IMG/VR virus record: IMGVR_UViG_3300017743_000018
Location: 1 to 50,147 of that record
Direction: 5' to 3' (one strand)
From: a virus
DNA: 50,147 nt
Part shown: piece by piece, positions 3,470 to 49,273 of the stretch
Position numbering within the stretch: position 1 is the stretch's first letter
How the letters are laid out: each line of letters starts with the position of its first letter
Made by a program: the position numbers and the translations under genes
The notes under the pieces: generated by a model
Databases searched by the model: none
Seen by the model: only the letters and a program-made list of their open reading frames with translations
Told to the model about the DNA's origin: nothing

Positions 3470-4414
3470 ATGCCTGAATTAGAAACTGTAGAAAAACCCA
3501 AGACAGCAGGTTTTGTAGATCGTGGGTTCAACCACTCTAAAAAACAAAAACGTATTGAAGAAGAAGAAGCAGAGATTGCTAGACTAGAGGCTGAAGCTCG
3601 TGGTGAAGAAGTTACTGAAAGTAAATCCAGTGGCAAAGATACTGAGGACACGAAAGTTCAAGCCACAGACGATTCCAAACAAGAAGAAACAAAAGAAGAA
3701 ACTAAAGCACAAGAAGACGATTCTGACTTAAGTGCTGAAGAAAAATCTTTTAAGAAACGTTATGGTGACTTGCGTAGACATATGCAAGAAAAAGAAAAAG
3801 AGTGGAATGAAAGAATAACTTCTCTTGAAAAGAAAAAGACAAAAGAGAGTATTGTGCCACCAAAGTCTGCTGAAGATATTGAGAAGTGGGCTAAAGAATA
3901 TCCAGACGTTGCAGGAATTGTTGAAGAGATTGCTTCACAAAAAGCAAAAGAAATGTTTAACAAAGCTGAGTCACGTCTAAAAGAATTAGATGAAGCTCAC
4001 AGTGAAGCTTTGCGTATGAAAGCAGAGAACGTTATTCGTAAAACACATGATGATTTTGATGATCTAAGACAATCAGAGAATTTTCATAATTGGGCAGAAG
4101 AACAACCTAAGTGGGTTAAAGATGCACTATATGAAAATATGGATGATCCTGCATCAGTTATACGTGTAATTGATTTGTATAAAATAGATAATGGTATGAC
4201 ACTAGAAGCTAAGAGAGCTACAAAGAAAGCTGCAGCATCTACAGTCTCCAAAGGAACTCGTACTTCTATAGATGAGAAAGGTATACAAGGACAAATAAAA
4301 GAGTCTGATGTAGCCAAAATGTCTAATAAGGAGTTTGAGGAACGTCAGGATGAAATAAACGAAGCCATGCGTAATGGTAAGTTTGTTTATGACGTATCTG
4401 GTGCAGCCAGATAA
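3470..4414 (+). CDS. Scaffold / capsid assembly protein
   Basis: The protein has 314 residues. It is extremely rich in Glu, Lys, Asp and Ala and almost wholly helical, with long coiled-coil stretches (about residues 20-60 and 85-130). It lies directly upstream of the major capsid gene. This size, charge and position are the signature of podovirus scaffold proteins, which template procapsid assembly and then leave. The C-terminal quarter (about 270-314, ending FVYDVSGAAR) is less charged and would be the capsid-binding part by analogy. The ATG is preceded by an AAGGAGT ribosome site. Confidence 0.8.
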   Translation: MPELETVEKPKTAGFVDRGFNHSKKQKRIEEEEAEIARLEAEARGEEVTESKSSGKDTEDTKVQATDDSKQEETKEETKAQEDDSDLSAEEKSFKKRYGDLRRHMQEKEKEWNERITSLEKKKTKESIVPPKSAEDIEKWAKEYPDVAGIVEEIASQKAKEMFNKAESRLKELDEAHSEALRMKAENVIRKTHDDFDDLRQSENFHNWAEEQPKWVKDALYENMDDPASVIRVIDLYKIDNGMTLEAKRATKKAAASTVSKGTRTSIDEKGIQGQIKESDVAKMSNKEFEERQDEINEAMRNGKFVYDVSGAAR

Positions 4415-4418
4415 ATAG

Positions 4419-4446
4419 TTGACACTTTTAAAGTGTTACATATAAC
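4419..4446 (+). promoter_or_regulatory. Sigma70-like promoter upstream of the capsid gene
   Basis: A perfect -35 TTGACA (4419-4424) is followed after 16 bp by TATAAC (4441-4446), extended to TATAACTA. The spacer contains a perfect inverted repeat, ACACTTT/AAAGTGT around one T (4422-4436), overlapping the -35 and suited to a dimeric regulator. The promoter lies just after the scaffold stop and would give the capsid mRNA a leader of about 200 nt. The same 16-bp spacing and TAYAACTA box recur before two right-end genes. Confidence 0.65.
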
Positions 4447-4451
4447 TACAG

Positions 4452-4604
4452 GTATCTGACATAGAGCCTCCCTCTGGGACTACCTCTATAGATACTTTTC
4501 ATTAAAGTCTAAACTATAAAGAACTACCTGGACAAGTATAGGCCCAGTAGTATTTAGAGGCGCAATCTAAGTACTTACTGCACCCTAGAAAACGTGCAGC
4601 CTCT
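4452..4604 (+). ncRNA. Structured 5' leader of the capsid mRNA (candidate)
   Basis: About 240 bases without a gene separate scaffold and capsid, and they are full of pairing. GTATCT (4452-4457) pairs with AGATAC (4490-4495) and, after a 3-base bulge, ATAGAG (4461-4466) pairs with CTCTAT (4484-4489), giving 12 bp with a CCC/GGG mini-hairpin inside. Further on, AGAGGC (4556-4561) pairs with GCCTCT (4599-4604) and encloses a palindrome, TAAGTACTTA (4568-4577), and a 5-bp stem CTGCA/TGCAG (4578-4582, 4595-4599). This looks like a two-domain RNA, possibly stabilising the transcript or controlling translation. Folding was done by eye only. Confidence 0.5.
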
Positions 4605-4654
4605 TTCAGATGTTTAAGCTTTTTCTTAAGCCAAATATCATGGAGGATTTAATC

Positions 4655-5728
4655 ATGGCTTTTCAAACAGCAAGTGGCTATGGAAATTTGCCCAATGGGA
4701 ACTTTTCTAGCGTCATTTATAGCAAAAAAGTACAGCTTGCTTTTCGCAAGAGTACAGTCGTTGGCGACATAACTAACTCTGATTTTTTTGGGGAGATTTC
4801 TGCCCAAGGAGATACAGTAAAAATTATCAAGGAGCCAGAAATTTCTGTGAACGCCTATGCTAGGGGTACACAGGTTTCAGCACAGGATCTTGATGACGAA
4901 GACTTTTCTCTAGTCGTAGATAAAGCGAACTACTATGCTTTTAAGATCGACGATATTGAGGAAGCGCACTCACATTCTAATTTCATGCAGCTTGCAACTG
5001 ATCGTGCAGCATATCGTTTAGCTGATCAGCATGACCAAGAAGTTCTTGGTTATCTATCAGGTTACAAACAGTCTGCTCTACATTCAAAAGCAGGTGCAGT
5101 GAATGACGTAGTGAATGGAACTAAAGCAGTTACAACTGCAGGTTCTGACGAATTGTTGACATCAATGAAACTACGAAAAGATTCATTTGGCAACATCACA
5201 ACTGGCTCTGCAGGGGATCATTCAATTCCTGTAGCAGCACGTCTACCTGGTGCAACAGCACTACCAACAGCAACTGTTTCTCCTGCGATGATTATCTCAC
5301 GCATGAAACGTTTGATGGATCAACAACAAGTTGACTCACAAAATAGGTGGCTCGTTGTTGACCCTGTGTTCATGGAAATTTTATCAGACGAGGATTCTCG
5401 ATATTTAAATTCTGACTATGGTGAATCAGGTGCACTACGTAATGGTCTAGTACTGAATAACATGCATGGTTTTAGAATGTATGTTTCCTCAAACCTTCCT
5501 GCAGTAGGAACAGGTTCAGGGACTTCAGGATCAGCCAACCAAAACACTAATTTTGGTGTTATTGTTGGTGGTCATGACTCAGCAGTAGCAACTGCAGAGC
5601 AGATCAGTAAGACTGAAACATATCGTGATCCAGATAGCTTTGCTGACATTGTGAGGGGAATGCACCTATATGGTCGCAAGATCCTACGTCCAGAAGCAAT
5701 CGTCACTGCTAAATATAACGCAGCTTAG
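4655..5728 (+). CDS. Major capsid protein
   Basis: I place the start at 4655 (MAFQTASGYGNLPNGNFS), giving 357 residues, because a GGAGG ribosome site lies 8 bases before it; the frame stays open to an ATG at 4610 that has none. Size, position after the scaffold, absence of cysteine, and segments such as TVKIIKEPEISVNAYARG, DKANYYAFKIDDIEEAHSH and a C-terminal YGRKILRPEAIVTAKYN fit HK97-fold podovirus capsid proteins. It builds the icosahedral shell. It should be the most abundant virion protein, consistent with its own strong promoter and structured leader. Confidence 0.88.
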   Translation: MAFQTASGYGNLPNGNFSSVIYSKKVQLAFRKSTVVGDITNSDFFGEISAQGDTVKIIKEPEISVNAYARGTQVSAQDLDDEDFSLVVDKANYYAFKIDDIEEAHSHSNFMQLATDRAAYRLADQHDQEVLGYLSGYKQSALHSKAGAVNDVVNGTKAVTTAGSDELLTSMKLRKDSFGNITTGSAGDHSIPVAARLPGATALPTATVSPAMIISRMKRLMDQQQVDSQNRWLVVDPVFMEILSDEDSRYLNSDYGESGALRNGLVLNNMHGFRMYVSSNLPAVGTGSGTSGSANQNTNFGVIVGGHDSAVATAEQISKTETYRDPDSFADIVRGMHLYGRKILRPEAIVTAKYNAA

Positions 5729-11363: not shown

Positions 11364-14300
11364 ATGGCTAATATATCAACATACTTTCCTTCAGGTGGCA
11401 GTGGAGCTTCAGGAGGAGGTATAGAAGGTACAAATAAATTTACCATTAAAGCAGGAGGTTCTTCTATACCTGCAGGTTGGCCTGTGTCTTATACTTTGGG
11501 TGATAAAACTATTGAAAAAACTCAAGGAGATCCCAACTCTCATACACTACCAACTTCTCATGGTGGGGTTAATGGTCATGGTATTATTCAAAACCCTGAT
11601 GTTTTTAATTGTAGTAACCATTGTTATTGTTGTTATTTACATTGTGCAACCTCTGCGTGTAATGCATATGATGTAACAATGAGACTTGGACCTTTAAACT
11701 GGTTTAGACTTTCTAAATCAGGTTTAATGGCTTTTAAAAATAAAGCTTGTGCAGACGCAAATAACTGTACAGATGGTCTTGCTATACCTTGTTATGGTAT
11801 GCAAAACATATGTTATGATGAAAGTAACTTATGTCTTACTGTTTTAAATACTGGTTTCGTAGTTGAGTGTGCTTGTACTAACAGTAATACAACAGTAAAT
11901 TATTCTAGTTTTTGTTGGTGTCAAACACCTTCAGTTCCTTTTCATAGCTATACTTCTGTTGAATCTACTAAGTGTTGTTTTTCAGGAGGAAACTGTTGTT
12001 GTATATGTTGTTTTGCAGCAAACCCACAACCAGGCTATCCTTTTGTTATAGAAAATCTTAGATGTTGTGCACAGATAGGTTCGTCTAATTCTCAATGTAG
12101 AGTTGTATCTCAATCAACTAAAAATCCTTATGAAGCCATAAATGGCACGATGGTATTTAAAAGTTGTGATTGTGCTTACTGGTATGTTGCTATGCCAGTG
12201 TTGAGAAAAGCTTGCCAAAATACAACAGGTAGTTGTTGTGCATTTCTTGGAAAAAAATGTTACATGGCTCCTAGAGAAATGTGTGCAGGTGGACAAAGAC
12301 ATGGTATGATGTTTTGGAAATTTACAAAGTGTTCAGGAAAAGATGAGCTTTGCACTAACCCAAGTATTACTTGTGATCTTGCTCATGGATGTTGGGGTTT
12401 AGGAAACCTAACTAAAAATGGTAACTTGATGTATGGCGTTAAGTCTAAAGCTGTTTCAAGTATCTGTGCTAACTGTGACTGTTTGTGTGTTCTTTTAGCA
12501 TGTGAGTTCTTTTTTGTAGAAGAGATGGATGGCAATGTATGTTTAAATCCTACTGCAGGTTGTATAGCTTCAACTAACAGAGAATTTAATTTTCAGTTTT
12601 GTAACGCATCTACTAACTCAAATTGTGGTACTATTTGTTCAGAAGGTGAAAGAAAACTATGGCCTATTACTGAAGATGCTAATGGTTGGGTTCTTTGGAC
12701 AGAGCCAGTTCAACACGTATACTTTAGAAAAGGTAGCAATGGTAGAGCAGAAAAGAAGCATTGTGGTTCTTTTATGAGGGTAGGAGCTTTTAAACCTACA
12801 GGACAGGGTGCAGGTGTAATGTCTACTAACATTGTGTGCATGTGCCATAATGCTGCTACTGATGGTCAATTTTGTTTAGGTCTTTACAATGGTGTAACTG
12901 GTGCATGTAGTGGTGTTTTTACTAGGTGTGCATCTTTAGATAGACACTTTGCAGGTGACTGTGCTGCAGGACAGAACTTTGGTGACTATATGGTTATGCA
13001 AGATGACCACCCTGTTCTGGTTAAAGCCCATGCAATGCAGTCTGATGGTGGCGTACCTAAATGTTTTTTCTGTTGTAGCAACAGTGGCGTTAGAAACTTA
13101 TGCTATGGGTTTCTTCCACAAGGAGCAGTTCATACAGGTTGCTACGACAGTGGGGAGTCAAAACAATTTTTGATACTATACCCCTTTTGGATAGGTGCAG
13201 AATGGACCAACTGTCAAACAAGGATTTGCTGTGGTTCTAATTTTCTAGGTGGCGAAAACGTTTGTTTTAAATTCTGTGTAAATAATTCAACAAATTGTAT
13301 TTATCTTACAGGTTGTACAGGAAGTGTAACTAACATTACTTGTTTTAATACTACTTCCTGTAGCTCACATGGTTTTCCTGGACAAACTTGTATAATGCCT
13401 GGTGATTTATTTAAACATGTAGAAAAAAATCTAAGAGCAAGTTTTGTTGAAACAATGCTTTATGAGGTCAGACCAAGACCTATAACAACTCACTATCAAC
13501 AAGGATACAATGTATCTTACTGTGGTCTTCTAATGCATGGTGATGTTTGTATTCCTAACCATGTATTACAATGTTGTGATTTTGCATGTTATAATTGTGG
13601 AGAGAGTAGAGGTGTAAATTGTTGCATGAGGACAATAGCAAGTCCTTTTGGTTGGCCTTCAAGTGTTTACTTGAACACAATGTCTCTTTGTCCTCAAAAC
13701 TATACTTTCTTAAGTTGCCAGTGTATTGAAGTTTGTTTTGGAGCTAACTGTCAAACTTGTGCAGGTCAAACCTTTAATATAAGTTATCACTGTACTTCTC
13801 CAACAACTAAAATAAGACAAAACTTCCCTAGTGTTTCAGGTGGTAATCCAACTGTATTTGGTAGAGGTGCTAACCCATGTTGTATGTGTGTAGGTACACC
13901 AATATTTCCTTACGTGTATCTCTGTGAAGACAGTTGCCTATGTCACCAAAATGCTTTCTGTGTTTATACAAGATGTAGGGCTACAGGTGCTGTTACAGCA
14001 TGTAACTTAGGTTGTTACTTTGGTACACTAACCTTTATGCCACAAGGGGCAGACGTTGTAGGTGCAAATTGTCATATCATATTCTGGAACTGTACATGTG
14101 CTGATGGCAGCACAAGATATGCAGTAGCAACTCAAGCAGCACAAAACAACAGTGCTACATGGATGGGATTTGCTTCAGAGGCAGGAAATGCAGGAGATGC
14201 AATATCTATTGCAACTCTTAATTCTGGGGCTGCACCATTACATGCTTGTTTAGGTGGCTCTTGTTTCTTGGGTAATGTTAGTGGTACTTGCTGTTTTAGA

Positions 14301-14495
14301 TTACAGTGTCCTGTTGCAACAATACAAAACAATTGTTGTCCTACTATCTTATGTTGTTTTGCAGTTACTAACCCTCAAGTTGTATGTGGCTCATCAAAAG
14401 CTATGGGAGCATTCAGAAGTTGTGTTTGTATATCTTTTAACCCTGCAGATAACTGCTGTAAATTATATATTACCCCACAAGTAGACGTTTGTTAA
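11364..14495 (+). CDS. Giant cysteine-rich tail protein 1, 1043 aa
   Basis: By hand count about 111 of 1043 residues are Cys (roughly 10.6 percent), mostly TGT codons. The first 80 residues are Cys-free, with a Gly/Ser-rich start (SGGSGASGGG) and a beta-rich region. Cys pairs and i,i+2 patterns then run to the end, for example NHCYCCYLHC, GNCCCICCF and CQCIEVCFGANCQTC. Asn, Thr, Ser and aromatic residues are abundant, as in beta-structured spikes. It lies between fibre genes with a normal GGAG ribosome site. I recognise no enzyme or named domain. It is probably a receptor-binding or shielding component with extensive disulfides or bound metal; that is inference. Confidence 0.8.
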   Translation: MANISTYFPSGGSGASGGGIEGTNKFTIKAGGSSIPAGWPVSYTLGDKTIEKTQGDPNSHTLPTSHGGVNGHGIIQNPDVFNCSNHCYCCYLHCATSACNAYDVTMRLGPLNWFRLSKSGLMAFKNKACADANNCTDGLAIPCYGMQNICYDESNLCLTVLNTGFVVECACTNSNTTVNYSSFCWCQTPSVPFHSYTSVESTKCCFSGGNCCCICCFAANPQPGYPFVIENLRCCAQIGSSNSQCRVVSQSTKNPYEAINGTMVFKSCDCAYWYVAMPVLRKACQNTTGSCCAFLGKKCYMAPREMCAGGQRHGMMFWKFTKCSGKDELCTNPSITCDLAHGCWGLGNLTKNGNLMYGVKSKAVSSICANCDCLCVLLACEFFFVEEMDGNVCLNPTAGCIASTNREFNFQFCNASTNSNCGTICSEGERKLWPITEDANGWVLWTEPVQHVYFRKGSNGRAEKKHCGSFMRVGAFKPTGQGAGVMSTNIVCMCHNAATDGQFCLGLYNGVTGACSGVFTRCASLDRHFAGDCAAGQNFGDYMVMQDDHPVLVKAHAMQSDGGVPKCFFCCSNSGVRNLCYGFLPQGAVHTGCYDSGESKQFLILYPFWIGAEWTNCQTRICCGSNFLGGENVCFKFCVNNSTNCIYLTGCTGSVTNITCFNTTSCSSHGFPGQTCIMPGDLFKHVEKNLRASFVETMLYEVRPRPITTHYQQGYNVSYCGLLMHGDVCIPNHVLQCCDFACYNCGESRGVNCCMRTIASPFGWPSSVYLNTMSLCPQNYTFLSCQCIEVCFGANCQTCAGQTFNISYHCTSPTTKIRQNFPSVSGGNPTVFGRGANPCCMCVGTPIFPYVYLCEDSCLCHQNAFCVYTRCRATGAVTACNLGCYFGTLTFMPQGADVVGANCHIIFWNCTCADGSTRYAVATQAAQNNSATWMGFASEAGNAGDAISIATLNSGAAPLHACLGGSCFLGNVSGTCCFRLQCPVATIQNNCCPTILCCFAVTNPQVVCGSSKAMGAFRSCVCISFNPADNCCKLYITPQVDVC

Positions 14496-21304: not shown

Positions 21305-21715
21305 ATGAAGAAGATATTTGTCAATGGAGCATTTGATGTAGTGCATTCAGGACACCTTGATCTGCTTGATTTTGCTAAGGGTTTAGGCACTCACCTGCTC
21401 GTAGCTATTGACACAGATAGGCGTATTGAGTATAACAAGGGGGAAGGAAGACCTTTCAATAAACTTAAGAATAGAAAACATTTAATTGGTTCGTTGAAAC
21501 CTGTTACAAGCGTAGTAACATTTGACACAGACAATGATCTTCTTGCAATTCTTGAAAGGTACAGACCAGACATAATGGTTAAGGGTTCTGATTGGAGAGG
21601 AAAAAAGGTTATAGGGGAGGAGTACTGTAACAAGGTAGTATTCTACGAGAGAACCAATGGTCAATCAACAACAAAAACAATCGAAAATTTTATTACTAGG
21701 CGACAGTTGCTATGA
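21305..21715 (+). CDS. Heptose-1-phosphate adenylyltransferase (HldE C-terminal domain type)
   Basis: I take the ATG at 21305 because KKIFVNGAFDVVHSGHLDLL, the nucleotidyltransferase HxGH motif region, must be at the N-terminus; this gives 136 residues. Further signatures are NRKHLIGSLKPVTSVVTFD, PDIMVKGSDW and the terminal GQSTTKTIENF. In Escherichia coli this domain is the C-terminal half of HldE/RfaE and makes ADP-heptose from heptose 1-phosphate and ATP. Here it is a separate protein encoded before the kinase. Other cytidylyltransferase-fold enzymes are possible but less likely given the neighbours. Confidence 0.75.
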   Translation: MKKIFVNGAFDVVHSGHLDLLDFAKGLGTHLLVAIDTDRRIEYNKGEGRPFNKLKNRKHLIGSLKPVTSVVTFDTDNDLLAILERYRPDIMVKGSDWRGKKVIGEEYCNKVVFYERTNGQSTTKTIENFITRRQLL

Positions 21716-48774: not shown

Positions 48775-48812
48775 CATGTTGTCTTTAGCCCAGTATTTTT
48801 ATTGTTTTATAC

Positions 48813-48841
48813 TTGAAGCGTGTATAACTATACTATATACT
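48813..48841 (+). promoter_or_regulatory. Sigma70-like rightward promoter
   Basis: TTGAAG (48813-48818) and TATACT (48836-48841) are separated by exactly 17 bp. A TATAACTA box (48823-48830) lies within the spacer, so two start sites are possible. It would drive the right-end genes and perhaps the late arm. Confidence 0.55.
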
Positions 48842-48851
48842 ACTAATAGTA

Positions 48852-49000
48852 TACTTAAAGTATTACTCTTTTATTTAATATTCTTTAATTAAGATTACTT
48901 TAAGTATAACTAGTAGTAATCCATATCATTTTTGTAGTTCCTTTTTCGACAGAAAAAGAATAAGACCTGTTGACTTGAGGATTACTTTAAGTACAACTAC
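48852..49000 (+). repeat. Dispersed ATTACTTTAAGT repeats
   Basis: TACTTAAAGTATTACT (48852-48867) is followed by ATTACTTTAAGTATAACTA (48894-48912) and ATTACTTTAAGTACAACTA (48981-48999). The last two are near identical direct repeats, and the first is their inverted relative. The same arms flank the control region at 43765-43841. They probably bind one regulator, or host RNA polymerase through the TAYAACTA ends. Confidence 0.75.
48970..48997 (+). promoter_or_regulatory. Promoter directly before the right-end genes
   Basis: TTGACT (48970-48975) and TACAAC (48992-48997, extended TACAACTA) are 16 bp apart, again the capsid promoter layout. The -10 lies 21 bases before the ATG at 49019. No strong ribosome site is visible, so translation may start almost leaderless. 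Confidence 0.5.
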
Positions 49001-49018
49001 TCAACACAAGAAATAATT

Positions 49019-49273
49019 ATGAATAAAAGAATAAAGTACTTTGAGTCTGACTCAGTACTTGAAGAGTTCTACAACGCACTAGCTAACAACAACGAAAAGA
49101 AGTTACGAAGGGTACACATCCCTCGTTCTGATGTCTTCTATGTGCGTAGAGCATACTTTGAGAAGACAGGCCACTGGGTTTCCTTAGACAGAATGGAAAG
49201 AGCTATGTACCTTGAGGGTATGTTGAGAAGGTCTGACGTTTTAGATCCTAGCAGGAGGAGAGACTGGGAATGA
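49019..49273 (+). CDS. Conserved small phage protein, 84 aa
   Basis: The charged sequence SVLEEFYNALANNNEKKLRR is followed by RVHIPRSDVFYVRRAYFEKT and GHWVSLDRMERAMYLEGMLR. I recall this pattern as conserved among marine T7-like and cyanophages, near lysis or packaging genes. The function is not established; many Arg/Lys residues would suit nucleic-acid contact. The start has no good ribosome site. The stop overlaps the next start (ATGA). Confidence 0.78.
   Translation: MNKRIKYFESDSVLEEFYNALANNNEKKLRRVHIPRSDVFYVRRAYFEKTGHWVSLDRMERAMYLEGMLRRSDVLDPSRRRDWE

Follow-up and report, generated by a model that had tools for sequence, protein, structure and literature searches.

The 240-nt gap in front of the major capsid (coat) protein (MCP) gene of the marine-type phage genome analysed here (positions 4415-4654) is, as judged from comparative sequence analysis, occupied by a promoter and, downstream of it, a structured leader RNA with a conserved fold. 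The reading preferred here, to which a probability of roughly one half is assigned, is that the gap encodes a 5′-untranslated leader for the capsid mRNA, one that belongs to a conserved structured RNA family and acts in cis on capsid translation. The window, i.e. the complete stretch of 50,147 nt under analysis, was taken from an IMG/VR virus record and represents an HMO-2011-type podophage with Roseobacter phage CRP-9 as its nearest isolate. The DNA round the leader is 77% identical to that of CRP-9 over 1.6 kb, followed by CRP-13, CRP-1, HMO-2011 and others. The gap extends from the stop codon of a probable scaffolding gene to the start codon of the MCP gene (Table 1). A tRNA search of the gap gave no hit and no conserved reading frame was seen in it, in agreement with the first-pass annotation, in which the gap was described as free of genes. 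In the CRP-9 annotation the capsid gene starts at ATGGAGG and overlaps the Shine-Dalgarno (SD) sequence (window 4640-4654). In relatives, however, CATGGAGG is replaced by CAGGAGG and therefore the ATG at 4655 is taken as the true MCP start. Elsewhere in the window, a very cysteine-rich predicted protein of 1043 aa is encoded at 11364-14495, downstream of a probable tail fibre gene.

Table 1. Positions of the leader elements and the neighbouring genes in the window.
Feature	Position	Strand	Sequence or evidence
Gene 5′ of the gap, probably scaffolding	3470-4414		PHROG of unknown function, scaffold position
Sigma-70-type promoter	4419..4446	+	TTGACA 4419-4424, 16-nt spacer, TATAAC 4441-4446, then TA
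P1, 5′-terminal hairpin from the predicted transcription start	4451..4496	+	arm-swap test
IL1 in P1	4467-4468 and 4480-4483	+	CC opposite CTAC; CTAC in 43/46
P2 5′ strand, long-range closing helix of the rod	4505..4514	+	AAG-T-CTAAAC; compensatory changes in all 9 pairs
P3 5′ strand, IL3 long strand, P4 5′ strand	4519..4530	+	AAGAA, CTAC (4524-4527), CTG
Conserved internal-loop strand	4531..4538	+	GACAAGTA; alignment
P5 5′ strand and IL2 short strand	4539..4544	+	TAGG, CC (4543-4544)
P6, variable hairpin	4545..4580	+	loop usually with GCGC or GGCC; each pair with compensatory changes
IL2 long strand, P5 3′ strand, loop strand	start of 4581..4605	+	CAC (4581-4583), CCTA, GAAAACGTG
P4 3′ strand, IL3 short strand, P3 3′ strand	end of 4581..4605	+	CAG (4597-4599), CC (4600-4601), TCTT (4602-4605)
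P2 3′ strand	4612..4621	+	GTTTAAGCTT; alternative pairing in the SD-side hairpin possible
P7 hairpin, immediately 5′ of the ribosome-binding site	4618..4631	+	GCTT/AAGC; 97% of cells paired
Candidate alternative SD-sequestering hairpin	4602..4647	+	TCTTTCAGATGTTT (4602-4615) with AAATATC (4633-4639) and TGGAGGA (4641-4647)
SD sequence of MCP	4642..4646	+	GGAGG; conserved in alignment
MCP gene	4655..5728	+	PHROG 267 major head protein, E 2e-59

The promoter had been rated as excellent in the first-pass annotation, and its motif is indeed rare, with two matches to TTGACA-N15-19-TATAAC in the window against 0.08 expected. The −35 box, the −10 box and the spacer length were all kept among 73 distinct leaders of relatives, with a 16-nt spacer in 69 of 70 related promoters, and the spacer sequence was variable. 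The 15-bp inverted repeat that had been pointed out in the spacer is present in the window (ACACTTTTAAAGTGT, 4422-4436), but an arm of at least 6 bp was found in only three of the 70 related promoters (the window, CRP-9 and one other), and the repeat was rejected as a conserved feature. Transcription should start approximately 5-8 nt past TATAAC, where P1 begins. The second promoter-like match (TTGACA-N17-TATAAC, 21408-21436) is located within a nucleotidyltransferase-like reading frame and is probably due to chance. At 48780-49020 lies an AT-rich non-coding stretch in which units resembling ACTTTAAGTATAACTA recur alongside several TATAACTA boxes (11 occurrences of TATAACTA in the window vs 4.1 expected); this is possibly an early promoter or regulatory region.

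The leader folds with a stability z-score of −3.4, and none of 200 shuffles was as good; leaders were more stable than their shuffles in all clade groups. The architecture consists of the 5′ hairpin P1, a rod formed by P2-P6, and P7 beside the SD sequence. Family-wide, the rod is composed of P2 (AAG-T-CTAAAC with GTTTAGCTT), P3 (AAGA/TCTT), P4 (CTG/CAG), P5 (YAGG/CCTR) and the long, variable P6, and P4 and P5 are separated by a loop AAGTA/GAAAA. The AGUA opposite GAA at this place in the window resembles, and may be, a loop-E/bulged-G module. The most conspicuous element is a repeated asymmetric, C-rich internal loop with CC opposite (N)YAC, possibly a C-loop, of which the window holds three copies: IL1 within P1, IL2 between P5 and P6, and IL3 between P3 and P4. 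P1 with IL1 occurs as a sole clear copy in the window, and IL1 is absent from HMO-2011 and CRP-2-like phages. Helix letters change freely, whereas loop letters do not: the CC and AC letters of IL3 and the CC of IL2 were invariant in 112 of 112 distinct rows, while P4 covaries between CTG/CAG, CTA/TAG and CTC/GAG, P5 changes from AGG/CCT to TGG/CCA, and P7 changes from GCTT/AAGC to GTGT/ACGC-type pairs in CRP-2-like phages. The P6 loop of the window and of most members carries a G+C-rich palindrome, GCGC or GGCC, despite the AT-rich genome. It is conceivable that this palindromic loop forms a kissing dimer or serves as a loop receptor; some members (L007, L057 and L077) are devoid of the P6 loop altogether.

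For the comparative analysis, about 85 relatives were gathered by capsid-protein similarity; their gaps were mostly 212-265 nt long and contained invariant sequence islands. With RNAalifold on a plain MAFFT alignment, the only parts recovered were P6, the P5 side and CCUC/GAGG, and therefore the structure was anchored by hand on the invariant islands and then tested. The resulting covariance model of the rod (R1) gave a single match in the window with E 7e-29 (next E 0.5) and matched 68 of 78 sources, among them HMO-2011, CRP-2, CRP-603, CRP-207, CRP-3 and CRP-235, the leaders of which had not been used in model building. In the R1-matched set 92.6% of the rod cells were paired compared to 75.9% after shuffling, and two-sided changes were found in 278 cells compared to 83. 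The two covariation alignments were fitted to the modelled structure and hence lean towards it, with scores of 0.406 for the R1-matched set (0.124 shuffled) and 0.532 for a second set of 48 distinct sequences, which stem from more distant phages and had no part in model building (0.170 shuffled); slid partners scored no higher than 0.09 in either set. The slid control agrees with the covariation in these fitted alignments, as does the two- to threefold excess of G-U over A-C in the helices (106:49 and 93:32), which is expected of an RNA made from this strand. Compensatory changes were present in all six helices. Exchange of the arms between phages lowered pairing of the P1 outer stem from 93% to 65% (maximum 72%) and of the P1 inner stem from 86% to 66%, and for P2 the energy with its own partner was better than with all 5000 swaps.

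Covariation in related phages had been named in the first-pass annotation as the check on its proposed stems, and for the rod it is present and strong. The 12-bp bulged stem described there corresponds to P6, whose base pairs were kept in 200 of 201 cells. The AGAGGC/GCCTCT and CTGCA/TGCAG stems can be formed in the window, but their partners pair in only 51% of the cells in relatives; both are therefore regarded as chance, are placed outside the conserved fold and were rejected as conserved stems. The 10-bp palindrome probably lies in the P7/SD-arm region or is the P6 loop region. P1, the long-range helix P2, P3-P5, the CC/(N)YAC loops and an alternative pairing with the ribosome-binding site had not been noticed in the first-pass annotation.

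In total, the rod model matched about 120 phage loci besides the window, upstream of MCP. A set of 240 more loci was drawn in with the capsid proteins of CRP-3, Sinorhizobium phage phiM6 and HMO-2011; of the added loci, 52 of 90 matched R1, all directly before MCP. A descriptor made up of the CC/(N)YAC loop and the stems on either side of it was found in 169 of 187 distinct divergent MCP-upstream gaps, compared to 11 when each was shuffled once. The distance from the rod 3′ end to the ATG was 49-92 nt (5-95% of 193 leaders). Complete isolate genomes contained at most one R1 match each, and neither the covariance model nor the loop descriptor revealed a second copy in the window genome. Rhizobium phages possess a shorter version, which in phiM6 reads AAAGA-CTAC-CCATA ... 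TATGG-CC-TCTTT round an inner hairpin TTAG-CC-...-ATAC-CTAA. The large family spans marine and soil phages, and its shape was kept while the sequence changed. The element was not found in the pelagiphages HTVC115P and HTVC033P or in Vibrio phage CHOED, whose MCP gaps of only 58, 31 and 26 nt, respectively, leave no room for it. A search of cellular genomes with the phiM6 MCP yielded no capsid relative. Two additional genes were observed in uncultured relatives: a tRNA-Met gene within the MCP gap upstream of the leader core (L164:1178-1253), and, in phage ctYwJ313 (L090:2345-2914), an HNH endonuclease-like ORF that occupies the leader region, between MCP and the scaffold-like gene. In view of this ORF, the leader may be a homing target.

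In the clade of the window, the strand that follows IL3 (TCTT...GTTTAGCTT) can pair in two ways, either upstream (P3 and P2) or in a downstream hairpin over GGAGG, and minimum-energy folds hide the SD sequence in most members. When own and swapped partners were compared within this clade, none of 5000 swaps was better for P2 or for the SD arm with full arms; after removal of the arm overlap, the values were 0 of 5000 for P2 and 15 of 5000 for the SD arm. The predicted SD pairing was 0.89 compared to 0.73 in shuffles; shuffled AT-rich leaders also often hide the SD sequence. Covariation of the SD arm was modest (score 0.132 vs 0.074), with no compensated change in its CCUC/GAGG part, and an SD-sequestration signal was not supported in the HMO-like, CRP-3-like and Rhizobium-phage-like groups. 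The SD-sequestering hairpin is thus moderately supported for the clade of the window only, and sequestration as a general mechanism was rejected on present evidence. Due to the modest covariation and the lack of signal in the other groups, an SD switch is proposed here as specific to this clade.

Translational control is the most likely role of the leader. It would act in cis on MCP translation and probably sets the amount of capsid protein; a boosting or timing effect on capsid synthesis is plausible. The recurring CC/(N)YAC loops look like multiple binding sites of one factor, which could be either a host RNA-binding protein or a structural or assembly protein of the phage. In the clade of the window, P2/P3, the state with an intact rod and a free SD, would compete with the SD-sequestering hairpin for one strand, and binding of the factor to the rod would in consequence switch translation on or off. 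More tentatively, the leader may operate across the family as a multi-site RNA switch, in which two to three internal-loop receptors sense a phage assembly protein or a host factor and gate MCP translation.

A rather unlikely alternative is that the leader merely stabilises the mRNA, with P1 and the rod shielding the abundant capsid transcript from 5′-end-dependent decay and the start region remaining open without any switching. Such a function would fit the stability of the leaders in all groups, the conservation of a strong promoter together with the leader, and the onset of P1 pairing 5-8 nt past the −10 box in most leaders, which would place the mRNA 5′ end inside a helix. However, a stabiliser requires neither invariant repeated CC/(N)YAC loops nor a P2 helix that is preserved through wholesale sequence change. 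Antitermination, in which the nascent leader would bind RNA polymerase and permit read-through of late-operon terminators, is considered improbable. The leader does lie directly 3′ of a promoter and opens a long transcript of structural genes, resembling putL of phage HK022, but the put RNAs comprise about 70 nt with two stem-loops and belong to the early operons of lambdoid phages (PMC9378689). This difference in size and architecture, together with the fixed relation of the rod to the MCP start, followed by an SD-proximal hairpin, makes antitermination less likely; moreover, no terminator 3′ of the capsid cassette was consistent across relatives, and the portal and scaffold-like genes are located upstream of the element. 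Slightly less probable again is a leader that is processed into, or doubles as, an RNA acting in trans, such as an sRNA or an RNA for assembly or packaging: its large independent fold and the palindromes frequent in P6 loops, which could pair between molecules, would suit this function, but the leader is always attached to MCP, has no terminator at its 3′ end and in some members lacks the P6 loop. A DNA-level element built from inverted repeats (operator, replication or packaging site), as the perfect spacer repeat of the window and CRP-9 might suggest, is very improbable, given that this repeat is not conserved, that the helices tolerate G-U over A-C and that the invariant letters sit in internal loops and not in helices.

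A search of Rfam 15 with the window and 16 diverse relatives gave no match at gathering score except an unrelated tRNA, and at a permissive threshold only OmrA-B appeared (E 4.5, below gathering). Likewise, literature searches turned up no capsid leader RNA or riboswitch described earlier, and a search of one HMO-2011-type genome paper gave no mention of a promoter or RNA element. Compensatory helix changes and a single-copy association upstream of MCP, two criteria for new RNA families, were both observed. The strong covariation, the lack of an Rfam family and the position before MCP throughout the sampled family therefore support a new conserved leader RNA, as anticipated by the suggestion of a new phage leader class in the first-pass annotation. 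On the basis of sequence comparison, the RNA family is new but its general kind, the cis-acting mRNA leader, is known; its architecture of repeated internal loops is unusual. HMO-2011-type phages are described as a dominant and widely distributed marine viral group (PMC9038755). A conserved leader on the structural gene whose product they need most offers a testable handle on capsid output, and the internal loop, which recurs and hardly varies, suggests an RNA-protein or RNA-ligand interaction still to be discovered.

Bacterial riboswitches and protein-responsive translational leaders share with the element a position in the 5′ leader, a conserved domain and, with moderate support in the clade of the window, a strand that could pair either with this domain or with the SD sequence; here, in contrast, the regulated gene would be a phage capsid gene, Rfam holds no match and the alternative pairing is supported in one clade only. 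In phage P22, autogenous post-transcriptional control of head assembly acts on the scaffolding gene. The likeness would lie in post-transcriptional control of head-assembly protein levels in a P22-like system, and the leader described here precedes the capsid gene instead. The pRNA of phage phi29 assembles as a free RNA into rings on the packaging motor; no 3′ end that would release the leader as a free RNA was found, and an RNA of this type is unlikely. The manA, wcaG and PhotoRC-II motifs are likewise structured RNAs of marine phages detected by comparative genomics, but they differ in structure and precede host-like metabolic and photosynthesis genes of cyanophages, and the 2010 survey of structured RNAs never mentions capsid (PMC2864571). 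HK022 putL and putR also represent phage RNAs acting in cis directly 3′ of a promoter (PMC9378689); with its approximately 170-200 nt, its repeated CC/(N)YAC loops and its association with a late capsid gene, the leader differs from the put RNAs in size and architecture.
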